A stretch of DNA of 37,475 nt from Microcaldota archaeon (GTDB lineage Archaea > Micrarchaeota > Micrarchaeia > Micrarchaeales > CABMGC01), in NCBI GenBank assembly GCA_021817505.1, contig JAKAUU010000031.1:1-37475 (forward strand), written 5' to 3'. The notes under the pieces were generated by a model that was given only the letters and a program-made list of their open reading frames with translations, did not search any database and was not told where the DNA came from. Within the stretch, counting starts at the first letter, position 1. The number at the start of each line of letters is the position of its first letter. This document shows, piece after piece, positions 13,794-17,691 of this stretch. A program made the position numbers and the translations under genes.

Positions 13794-14201
13794 ATGTCGT
13801 TGCTTCAGGAATTCCAGTCGTTCATAACCAAGGGTAATGTGATAGACCTTGCAGTGGCTTTCGTAATTGGCGCTGCATTCAATGCAGTGGTCACTGCGCT
13901 TGTTACGGACATTGTCACTCCGTTAATAGGAATACCTGGGCATGTGAACCTTGCAGGCATCACATTCACGGTTAACGGTAGCACCTTCCTTATCGGCGCG
14001 TTCGTAAATTCAGTAATAGCGTTCCTGAGCATAGCCATAGCAGTATTCTTCTTCGTGATAAAACCGATGGCAAAAATGCAGAAAGCCACCAGCAAGCCGC
14101 AGCCCGCTGCTGCACCTGATACGAAGACATGCACGGAATGCCTGTCAAAGATACCCATAATGGCAAAACGCTGCGCATTCTGCACCTCGCCTCAGAAGTA
14201 G
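13794..14201 (+). CDS. mscL: Large-conductance mechanosensitive channel MscL with C-terminal zinc ribbon
   Basis: LLQEFQSFITKGNVIDLAVAFVIGAAFNAVVTALVTDIVTPLIG; tail KTCTECLSKIPIMAKRCAFCTSPQK (CxxC...CxxC). Confidence 0.94.
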   Translation: MSLLQEFQSFITKGNVIDLAVAFVIGAAFNAVVTALVTDIVTPLIGIPGHVNLAGITFTVNGSTFLIGAFVNSVIAFLSIAIAVFFFVIKPMAKMQKATSKPQPAAAPDTKTCTECLSKIPIMAKRCAFCTSPQK

Positions 14202-14316: not shown

Positions 14317-14436
14317 TGGCGGAGGGGAGATTTGAACACCCGATCTCTAGATTTCTAAGGTCATAGCCTAAAGGCTCATTACTCATCATGCTATGCATAT
14401 GAGTCTAGCGCTCTAACCAGGCTGAGCTACTCCGCC
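14317..14436 (-). tRNA. tRNA with CAU anticodon (elongator Met or Ile2), intron of about 45 nt (approximately 14353-14397)
   Basis: Minus strand GGCGGAG TA GCTC...GAGC G CTAGA CTCATA [intron] A TCTAG AGATC GGGTG TTCAAAT CTCCC CTCCGCC; 7-bp acceptor stem. CCA not encoded. Confidence 0.88.
14353..14397 (-). other. tRNA intron at canonical 37/38 position
   Basis: Removal restores CTAGA-CTCATAA-TCTAG; the intron contains a CATAGC/GCTATG stem. Exact boundaries ambiguous by a few nt. Confidence 0.7.
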
Positions 14437-14529
14437 GCTGGAGTTTATTTGCATGCCAAAGTTATTTAGCTTTGCACCTTTAAATCAAAAGCTTATATAT
14501 AATAAATGATGTTATATTCTTGCTCCATG

Positions 14530-14601
14530 GCCTTGGTAGTGTAATGGTTAGCATAGAGGACTGTGGATCCTCAGGACCGGGTTCGATTCCCGGCTTAGGC
14601 C
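14530..14601 (+). tRNA. tRNA-His (GTG anticodon)
   Basis: G-1 then GCCTTGG...GAGGA CTGTGGA TCCTC AGGA CCGGG TTCGATT CCCGG CTTAGGC C; G-1:C73 characteristic of tRNA-His. Upstream TATA-like CTTATATATA. Confidence 0.92.
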
Positions 14602-14729
14602 CTTCTTTCTTGAGTTTTTTTGTTTCGGCGCTTAATTTTGCCGAAGGATTTTCATTGTGCTTCAGAATAACTATTTAAAGCTGAGCATCAGCATCTGTTT
14701 TTAGTGATAAAAGCCCTTTCTGATTTCGC

Positions 14730-14738
14730 TTTAAATAT
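14730..14738 (+). promoter_or_regulatory. TATA-like box of nrdJ
   Basis: TTTAAATAT about 70-75 nt upstream of the nrdJ GTG. Confidence 0.4.
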
Positions 14739-14745
14739 CTTAGTG

Positions 14746-14761
14746 ACACAATAGGTAGTGG
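14746..14761 (+). promoter_or_regulatory. Candidate NrdR box 1
   Basis: ACACAATAGGTAGTGG, 13/16 to aCaCwAtATaTwGtGt (consensus from memory). Confidence 0.5.
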
Positions 14762-14776
14762 TCTTGTGTTTGCAAG

Positions 14777-14792
14777 ACACAACATATAGTAT
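14777..14792 (+). promoter_or_regulatory. Candidate NrdR box 2
   Basis: ACACAACATATAGTAT, 14/16 to the NrdR-box consensus; 31 bp from box 1. Confidence 0.55.
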
Positions 14793-14806
14793 TTTGGGGC
14801 GAGCGT

Positions 14807-17185
14807 GTGGAAAAAGATGAAAAGACTGATCTTGTTGAGAAAAAGAGTGTGGAGAGAGCCGTGACTGCGATTCCGAAGGAGACATATGAGTTCTTCAACG
14901 GGGATGAGATACGTTCAAGAGTATTCTATGAGAAGTATGCGCTGAAGGACCTTGATGGGACAATGCTGGAGAAGACACCGGATCAGATGTGGTCGAGAGT
15001 CTCGAAGGTCATAGCCGATGCGGAGCTGAGCCCTGAAAAGAGGGCCGAGTGGTATGAGAAATTCAAATGGCTGCTTGGCGATTTCAGATTCCTGCCTGGG
15101 GGAAGAATACTCTTTGCTGCAGGACAGCAGCGCAAGTCAACCCTGCTCAACTGTTATGTGATACCTGTAAAGAATGATTCCATAGAGGATATATTCGACT
15201 GGTGCAAGGAGGCTGCAAGAACCTATAGCTACGGTGGAGGAGTCGGCACTGATATAAGCGTATTGAGGCCTAAGAACGCCCCTGTAAACAACTCTGCAGT
15301 TTATTCAACAGGCTCTACCTCATTCATGAATATCTTCAGCGAGACCACGCACACGATAGGCCAGCATGGCAGGCGCGGAGCCCTTATGATAACCATAAGA
15401 GTAGACCATCCGGATGTTCTCTCCTTCATAACTATAAAGAGAAACCTGGGCAACGTCAGATACGCAAACATAAGCGTAAAGATTACTGACGAATTCATGC
15501 AGGCGGTTAAAGAGGATAAGAATTTCGCCCTCAGGTATGATAATGGCGTTGTGGGAAGAATCACGAGTACCGTGCGGGCAAGGGATCTGTGGAATGAGCT
15601 CGTAAACTCGGCAAGGGACTGGGCAGAACCAGGACTTATATTCTGGGACACTGTGAAGAAGTACTCGCCTAGCGAATACAACGGCATGGAGGTAATAGGC
15701 ACAAACCCGTGCTCCGAACAGCCTTTGCAGGCTTACGGGGCATGCGATCTCGGAAGCCTGAATCTTTCAGCTTTCGTAAGCGGCGCATTCACTGACAGCG
15801 CAAGGATAGAGTGGGAGCAGTTGGACAAGGCAGTAGGCTACGGGGTAAGATTCCTTGACGATGTGCTTGATTACAACGATGCAAGGCATCCGCTGAAGCA
15901 GCAGGCAGAGGCTGCAAGGAACAGCAGGAGGATAGGCCTTGGGATAACAGGTCTTGGAGATATGCTGGTTAAGCTCAAGATAAGGTACGACAGTGAGAGG
16001 GCTCTGGCTTTCATAGACGAGCTCTTTATGAGGATAAAGAACAGGGCGTATATGGAGAGCATAGAGATAGCAAAGGAGAAGGGTTCCTTCCCTATGTTCG
16101 ATAAGGAGAAGCATCTCTCGATGCCTTTCATACAGACGCTAAATGAGGATATAAAGAATGGTATAGAAAAGAATGGTTTGAGGAATGTCGCCGTACTTAC
16201 GGTTCCTCCTACTGGAAGCATCTCGGTGCTTGCCGGAACATCAAGCGGCATAGAACCCATATTTGCATTCAGTTATACAAGAAGGTCAGAATCCCTGAGC
16301 CAGGAGTTCTATAAGGTCTATCATCCTCTTGCAATGGAGTACATGCGCCTGTTCAACATAGCTGATGAGGATAACCTTCCTGATTTCTTCGTACCTGCCC
16401 ATAAGATAGATGCGGAGTTCAGGGTGAGGGTGCAGGCAACCATACAGAAGCACATAGACAGTGCAATATCCTCTACGGTAAACCTGCCGAACGACGCCTC
16501 TGTGGATGATGTGGGAAAGATATACATGAAGGCGTGGGAATCCGGATGCAAGGGAATAACTGTTTATAGAGAGGGTTCCAGAGAGGGCATATTGATAACC
16601 GAAGAACAGCAGAAGAAGAAGGAGCAGGAGCAGCAGAAGAAGGAAGAGAAGCAGGTTGAGGATCTCTCATGGAAGCGTGAGGTCGTGCTTAGCGGGCAGA
16701 CGATGAAGGTGACTCTCCCTAACGGAAGTCCGATGTACCTGACTGCGAATTTCGACAGCACCTCTATACGGGAAATCTTTATCAACCTTGGCAAGACTGG
16801 AAGCGAGGAGAAGAGCTATGCCGAGGCGATAGGCAGGCTTATCAGCAAGTATCTGCAGCAGGGAGGGGATGTCCGCGAGGTTGTTGAGAGCCTGAAGGGA
16901 ATACGTGCAAATTCCTCAGTAGGATGGGATCATGGCATGAAGATATACAGCGTCCCTGATGCGATAGCCAAGAGCATAGAGATACTTGCAGGGATAACCG
17001 CGCCTGCAGTAGCGAAGAAGCTGCTTGAGGAGGTGCCGGCTGACCTGATAAACGGGAGGCAGGATGTGATAAAGAATGTGCACGGGATAAAACCTGAGAA
17101 GTGCCCGTCATGCTCGGAGATGACCCTGATAAACGAGAACGGATGCGTCATCTGCAAGTCATGCAGCTTCACTAAGTGCGAGTAG
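14807..17185 (+). CDS. nrdJ: Ribonucleotide reductase, class II (adenosylcobalamin-dependent) type
   Basis: LLNCYVIPVKNDSIEDIFDWCKEAARTYSYGGGVGTDIS, NPCSEQPLQAYGACDLGSLNLS, TVPPTGSISVLAGTSSGIEPIFAFSYTRR; Cys-rich C-terminus CPSCSEMTLINENGCVICKSC. GTG start. Confidence 0.93.
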   Translation: MEKDEKTDLVEKKSVERAVTAIPKETYEFFNGDEIRSRVFYEKYALKDLDGTMLEKTPDQMWSRVSKVIADAELSPEKRAEWYEKFKWLLGDFRFLPGGRILFAAGQQRKSTLLNCYVIPVKNDSIEDIFDWCKEAARTYSYGGGVGTDISVLRPKNAPVNNSAVYSTGSTSFMNIFSETTHTIGQHGRRGALMITIRVDHPDVLSFITIKRNLGNVRYANISVKITDEFMQAVKEDKNFALRYDNGVVGRITSTVRARDLWNELVNSARDWAEPGLIFWDTVKKYSPSEYNGMEVIGTNPCSEQPLQAYGACDLGSLNLSAFVSGAFTDSARIEWEQLDKAVGYGVRFLDDVLDYNDARHPLKQQAEAARNSRRIGLGITGLGDMLVKLKIRYDSERALAFIDELFMRIKNRAYMESIEIAKEKGSFPMFDKEKHLSMPFIQTLNEDIKNGIEKNGLRNVAVLTVPPTGSISVLAGTSSGIEPIFAFSYTRRSESLSQEFYKVYHPLAMEYMRLFNIADEDNLPDFFVPAHKIDAEFRVRVQATIQKHIDSAISSTVNLPNDASVDDVGKIYMKAWESGCKGITVYREGSREGILITEEQQKKKEQEQQKKEEKQVEDLSWKREVVLSGQTMKVTLPNGSPMYLTANFDSTSIREIFINLGKTGSEEKSYAEAIGRLISKYLQQGGDVREVVESLKGIRANSSVGWDHGMKIYSVPDAIAKSIEILAGITAPAVAKKLLEEVPADLINGRQDVIKNVHGIKPEKCPSCSEMTLINENGCVICKSCSFTKCE

Positions 17186-17196
17186 ATTGCCCGCAC

Positions 17197-17691
17197 TCAT
17201 TTCTTTTCCTTACTTATTTTTTTATTTCTCTTTCCCTTTTCCCCTTTCTCGAAGAGCTTGACAACTTCCTTGAACTCCCTTGGGGAATCGAAATTCTTGT
17301 AAACGCTTGCAAAACGTATATATGCGACCGGGTCCAGCTTGAAGAGTTCCTTTACGACCATGTCCCCTATGGCGCTTGATTTTATCTCCTTGATATCGTT
17401 GCCGTTGATCTTGGCCTCTATCTTATCGACTACGCGATCCATGGCCTCTCTGCTTATCTTCCTCTTTTCACATGCACGCAGGATGCCGCTGAGGACCTTG
17501 TCCCTGTTGAACGACTCTCTGGTATTATCACGCTTTATTACAGTTACGCCTGCAAAATCGGGTTTCTCGTAAGTAGTAAACCTGTGTTTGCAGTCTGTGC
17601 ACTGCCTTCTTCTCCTTGTGCTGGACTCGTTTGGAACCTCACGCGAATCTATGACCTCGGTGCTGTCGTTTCCGCAGTAGGGGCATCTCAT
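17197..17691 (-). CDS. nrdR: Transcriptional repressor NrdR (zinc ribbon plus ATP-cone)
   Basis: MRCPYCGNDSTEVIDSREVPNESSTRRRRQCTDCKHRFTTYEKP followed by ATP-cone VTVIKRDNTRESFNRDKVLSGILRACEKR. Confidence 0.96.
   Translation of the reverse strand: MRCPYCGNDSTEVIDSREVPNESSTRRRRQCTDCKHRFTTYEKPDFAGVTVIKRDNTRESFNRDKVLSGILRACEKRKISREAMDRVVDKIEAKINGNDIKEIKSSAIGDMVVKELFKLDPVAYIRFASVYKNFDSPREFKEVVKLFEKGEKGKRNKKISKEKK

Follow-up and report, generated by a model that had tools for sequence, protein, structure and literature searches.

The nrdJ promoter of a micrarchaeal genome carries a pair of predicted binding sites for NrdR, a repressor best known from bacteria. Among relatives, genomes with nrdR have the pair and genomes without nrdR lack it, which makes it almost certain that the switch exists. 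The protein and the operator are as known in bacteria; the promoter machinery is different. What the DNA shows directly is that the predicted boxes are present, that they are conserved and that they go with nrdR and with ribonucleotide reductase (RNR) genes. It is very probable that the pair is an NrdR operator through which nrdJ would be repressed in a dATP/ATP-dependent manner, an account in which we infer the binding, the ligands, the repression and the blocked step. With its defined repressor, ligand and operator, this locus lends itself to the question of how a TBP/TFB promoter can be shut by a regulator that bacteria also have.

The window, meaning the whole 37,475-nucleotide stretch of DNA analysed, is contig 7 of an 839-kb archaeal MAG (839,263 bases, 34 contigs, 84% complete). 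The closest named relatives of its NrdJ, at 90-91% identity, come from Candidatus Micrarchaeota MAGs. The nrdJ gene (14807-17185, + strand) encodes a 792-residue class II (adenosylcobalamin) RNR that scores 567 bits against TIGR02504 and carries Pfam domains PF02867, PF00317 and PF12637. It begins with GTG at 14807, and congeneric genomes show ATG or GTG at the equivalent position. The nrdR gene (17197-17691, - strand), encoding a 164-residue Zn-ribbon and ATP-cone repressor, is convergent with nrdJ and lies 11 bp past the nrdJ stop. Upstream of nrdJ, on the + strand, are a TATA box, TTTAAATA (14730-14737), and two predicted NrdR boxes assigned by consensus match and conservation: box 1, ACACAATAGGTAGTGG (14746-14761), and box 2, ACACAACATATAGTAT (14777-14792). 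A 15-bp spacer (14762-14776) separates the boxes. The TATA assignment draws on the sequence, on TATA-like octamers in relatives and on the TBP gene of the source genome.

The preliminary description had placed two NrdR-box-like sites at 14746 and 14777, offset by 31 bp, downstream of the TATA-like element and ahead of the nrdJ GTG, with a zinc-ribbon and ATP-cone nrdR directly convergent. Re-reading of the sequence returned the same coordinates, recomputed matches to the bacterial consensus ACACWATATATWGTGT were again 13/16 for box 1 and 14/16 for box 2, and the neighbouring gene was identified as nrdR by TIGR00244, PF22811 and PF03477. Both boxes are 16-bp palindromes of the acaCwAtATaTwGtgt type that, in pairs, defines an NrdR operator, and their spacer falls within the 14-17 bp range of NrdR boxes, with three turns between boxes. 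Taken singly, such boxes are not rare: with up to three mismatches, the consensus occurs five times in the window vs 2.5 expected. The evidential weight rests on the pair, its spacing and its conservation, since a single-box match is weak.

Judged as a pair, the sites stand out. Their score was reached in none of 200 dinucleotide shuffles of the 200 bp upstream of nrdJ. With the window's genus left out of its training set, a weight matrix scored the pair at 31.1 on the + strand and 35.9 on the opposite one; among non-overlapping + strand pairs at any offset of 28-35, the runner-up scored 14.5. A profile search of the whole source genome returned three matches at E<=10, all within 14740-14794. 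These E-values (0.39 and up) understate the pair because the 48-position profile breaks a 31-bp pair into half matches in this genome, which makes a fixed-offset pattern the better test. When the 12 most conserved bases were searched for as a pattern with offset 31 and up to one mismatch, the 839,263 bases yielded a single match (reversed control, 4). Equally scoring pairs elsewhere in the genome had been named as an outcome that would speak against an operator; none was found, as all profile matches at E<=10 lie at the nrdJ promoter and the core pattern is unique. The frequency of single-box matches is what speaks for chance similarity, and given the pair statistics, the genome-wide uniqueness and the conservation, the probability of such an origin is negligible. 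On the strength of shuffles, genome-wide scans and conservation, we reject a chance origin of the pair.

The candidate repressor is the only NrdR in the source genome. It scores 176.6 bits against TIGR00244 (curated cut-off 124.65) and matches PF22811 and PF03477. Its translation, aligned to PDB NrdR chains, holds D15, R17, RRRR at 26-29 and R37. In the Streptomyces coelicolor complex, D15 and R17 read the boxes and the arginines at 26-29 and 37 hold the backbone (PMC9110341). Residue R12 of S. coelicolor is E12 in the micrarchaeal protein. NrdR has been described as rare in archaea (PMC9110341, PMC12176259); it exceeds the curated cut-off in 133 of 295 species sampled from the phylum. The label 'bacterial-type' given earlier to this repressor holds for its family, although NrdR had already been noted in some archaea (PMC3019208, PMC9110341).

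Comparison across the window's family links boxes and repressor. Among 59 genomes, NrdJ was found in 55 and NrdR in 45. The comparison used 46 promoters of nrdJ or of an nrdR-nrdJ operon for which NrdR status was known, plus that of genome G043. A pair at offset 31 or 32 lies upstream of nrdJ or nrdR-nrdJ in 35/35 NrdR-positive and 0/11 NrdR-negative genomes (Fisher p 7e-11, uncorrected for ancestry). Predicted operators thus occur in every NrdR-positive promoter examined in the family, though NrdR is called rare in archaea; a lack of conservation, which had been put forward as grounds for rejection, was not what we observed. G043 has the pair and no nrdR was found in it, on a contig that stops 355 bp past nrdJ, where nrdR would sit. 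By a crude consensus score, the weakest positive (29; 2/200 shuffles) and the best negative (28; 15/200 shuffles) are nearly equal, so that assignment at this edge relies on position and the profile search. On a maximum-likelihood NrdJ tree, the absence of NrdR and boxes takes five changes, at least four of them forced by well-supported branches. A sign test on independent pairs agreed in 4/4 (p 0.125), too few for significance alone.

The pattern of conservation within the pair is that of two separate sites. Across 36 promoters, neither box ever departs from C4, A6, T11 and G13; A3 is invariant in box 1 and present in 35/36 in box 2, and T14 is invariant in box 2 and present in 35/36 in box 1. 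The spacer is 15-16 bp long in family relatives, without any invariant base.

The profile also finds sites elsewhere in the relatives. In 14 NrdR-positive genomes the best matches (E 5e-4 to 7e-7) lie upstream of nrdJ, nrdR-nrdJ, class I nrdA, class III nrdD or nrdR, and strong sites other than the nrdJ promoter are mostly upstream of nrdD, class I nrdA or nrdR. Seven of these 14 genomes had contributed a promoter to the profile; the seven that had not (G003, G013, G022, G027, G030, G041 and G048) are the fair test and behave alike. The best match anywhere in nine NrdR-negative genomes had an E-value of 0.13. The site therefore accompanies NrdR and the kind of gene that NrdR is known to control, and not one particular gene. 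These results bear on whether the pair might be the operator of another regulator, with NrdR a bystander. The assignment of the pair to NrdR is sequence-based, which leaves room for such a regulator; we nevertheless consider it very improbable, as the pair matches the bacterial NrdR consensus and spacing, tracks nrdR presence genome by genome, and recurs upstream of nrdR itself and of all three RNR classes in relatives. Footprinting over 46 genomes, joint loss with nrdR, genome-wide uniqueness and profile matches mostly on RNR genes or nrdR all support the original reading of the boxes as NrdR operators.

Two further matches fall outside the known RNR genes. Genome G021 has a strong pair, 32 bp apart, upstream of a gene for a uridine-kinase-like/CYTH protein (L185:805-2007, - strand; E 3e-5). 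In two genera, a box pair stands at the start of a gene with a B12-binding domain and otherwise without Pfam match (L190:1-1952, - strand; L191:1902-4001, + strand). The matches at this gene in G024 and G033 are weaker (E about 0.04), and it is a possible further member of the regulon.

How the pair would act depends on its position in the promoter. Upstream of box 1, a TATA-like octamer was found in 33 of 35 loci vs 2.9 expected by shuffling; the best octamer starts 5 to 50 bp upstream of the box, most commonly 15-19. Together with the TBP gene, this element supports the earlier proposal that the repressor acts on a TBP/TFB promoter. Archaeal transcripts start about 26 bp downstream of the TATA box, by which rule the nrdJ transcript is expected to start near 14760. 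This would place box 1 at about -14 to +2 relative to the start, with box 2 at about +17 to +33. The proposal that NrdR covers the start region fits this geometry and is retained here as a prediction.

In the most probable account, the pair is the NrdR operator and repression would proceed as follows. At high dATP, an NrdR tetramer carrying ATP and dATP would bind the two boxes, which lie three helical turns apart; this ligand requirement (ATP plus dATP for binding) is borrowed from S. coelicolor. Bound NrdR would occupy a stretch that begins shortly after the TATA box and reaches about 30 bp past the transcription start. RNA polymerase would then not be recruited or would be unable to start, and nrdJ would be repressed. 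When dATP falls, ATP-loaded NrdR would leave and nrdJ would be expressed.

The position of box 2 within the predicted 5′ leader raises the question of whether the conserved sequence could instead work in RNA, as a riboswitch or attenuator. This is highly unlikely: most of box 1 precedes the predicted start, positions 14600-14950 have no Rfam match up to E 1, and what is conserved is two separate palindromes at a fixed helical phase around an unconserved spacer.

For an NrdR operator acting on DNA, a second question is which step of initiation is blocked. Given that NrdR binds, the step is probably the access of RNA polymerase, and not that of TBP/TFB. The TATA box mostly starts 15-19 bp upstream of box 1, which would leave the TBP site free. 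By analogy, Pyrococcus furiosus LrpA, whose site borders the TATA box on its downstream side, blocks RNA polymerase without blocking TBP/TFB (PMC2995911). LrpA shares with the micrarchaeal pair, itself predicted to exclude RNA polymerase, a site just downstream of the TATA box, whereas its protein family and ligand are unrelated to those of NrdR. It is less likely, though worth serious consideration, that bound NrdR stops TBP/TFB binding or kinks the DNA so that no preinitiation complex forms. Each box bound by S. coelicolor NrdR is kinked by almost 90 degrees (PMC9110341), and TATA box and box 1 adjoin each other in genera g11 and g26, where the former starts 5-7 bp upstream of the latter; against this, the TATA box in the window ends 8 bp before box 1 and most relatives have no overlap between TATA and box, so the TBP site is free. 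As the distance from TATA to box varies from 5 to 50 bp, the blocked step may differ among species.

Repression by NrdR may carry particular weight in this organism. A Pfam search found no ATP-cone (PF03477) in NrdJ, and no NrdD (class III enzyme) or other RNR was found in the source MAG at its 84% completeness. With an NrdJ that lacks the cone and no second RNR found, dNTP supply may be held back mainly by NrdR, which may also be the chief dATP sensor, a tentative reading because another RNR could be missing from an incomplete MAG. It points to a way in which ultra-small archaea could restrain the synthesis of DNA precursors where the sole reductase found is without its own dATP switch. In five related genomes (G004, G005, G029, G047 and G054), long in-frame insertions, probably inteins, interrupt nrdJ in the vicinity of residue 115 or 304.

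The micrarchaeal system shares much with the NrdR regulons of Escherichia coli, S. coelicolor and Listeria: the repressor family, palindromic boxes with invariant C4 and G13, a 15-16 bp spacer, boxes around the transcription start (a predicted one in the archaeon), and RNR promoters, often with nrdR too, as targets. The spacers of these three bacteria are 15-16 bp, and NrdR proteins bind spacings of 14-17 bp in vitro (PMC12051234). The central bases of micrarchaeal box 1 are looser than the bacterial consensus. A further difference is that the bacterial machinery is sigma-dependent, whereas the micrarchaeal promoter appears to be of the TATA/TBP type, so the repressor would have to block archaeal machinery. 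Among 67 bacterial nrdJ loci (mostly Bacteroidales), only three have a box pair (L211, L266 and L268). Outside the archaeal group, the nearest relatives of this NrdJ are in the bacterial MAGs L209 and L211 (Thermodesulfobacteriota, Myxococcota), at 52-53% identity. The box pair of L211 suggests exchange of nrdJ between the domains.

Within archaea, NrdR was noted in haloarchaeal RNR operons by Lundin et al. 2010, which in the part available describes gene order (PMC3019208). The two systems share an NrdR that adjoins RNR genes; the haloarchaeal operons, however, have a class I RNR, nrdR as the first gene, poorer boxes and a shorter offset. In six haloarchaeal plasmids (L296-L301), a weaker pair of palindromes 29-30 bp apart lies directly upstream of nrdR. 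NrdR boxes in archaea may therefore be more widespread still. Our literature search found no earlier account of NrdR boxes in archaea and returned only a Streptococcus/Listeria paper.

Some relatives appear to have taken this partnership further. In six genomes from at least three other families of the phylum, a full NrdR (Zn ribbon plus ATP-cone) precedes the class III enzyme NrdD in a single reading frame, as an N-terminal fusion; complete proteins are about 830-880 residues long with two ATP-cones. The fusions lie at L139:2846-5476 (+ strand), L140:831-3455 (- strand), L141:978-3473 (- strand) and L142:2441-4975 (+ strand; one internal stop), and those in L143 and L144 are cut by contig ends. 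In G120, G137 and G214, the fusion (with one internal stop in G214) is both the sole RNR and the sole NrdR found. Box pairs upstream of the fusion are clear in L140, L141 and L142; L139 and L144 have one poor box, and L143 has no box pair upstream. The literature searched contained no paper on an NrdR-NrdD fusion. Judging from these sequences, NrdR could be built into DNA precursor control throughout the phylum and, in some lineages, fused to its own target, so that NrdR-NrdD could act as a dATP sensor that turns off its own catalysis and also occupies the promoter of its own gene. We offer this as a tentative suggestion that is somewhat more likely wrong than right. The fusion joins a repressor to its own target enzyme in one protein.

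Two other features of the window lie upstream of the nrdJ promoter. Positions 14320-14438 (- strand) read as an intron-containing tRNA gene with a CAT anticodon, uncalled by ARAGORN. Positions 13794-14201 (+ strand) encode an MscL channel whose C-terminal CxxC...CxxC tail resembles a zinc ribbon.
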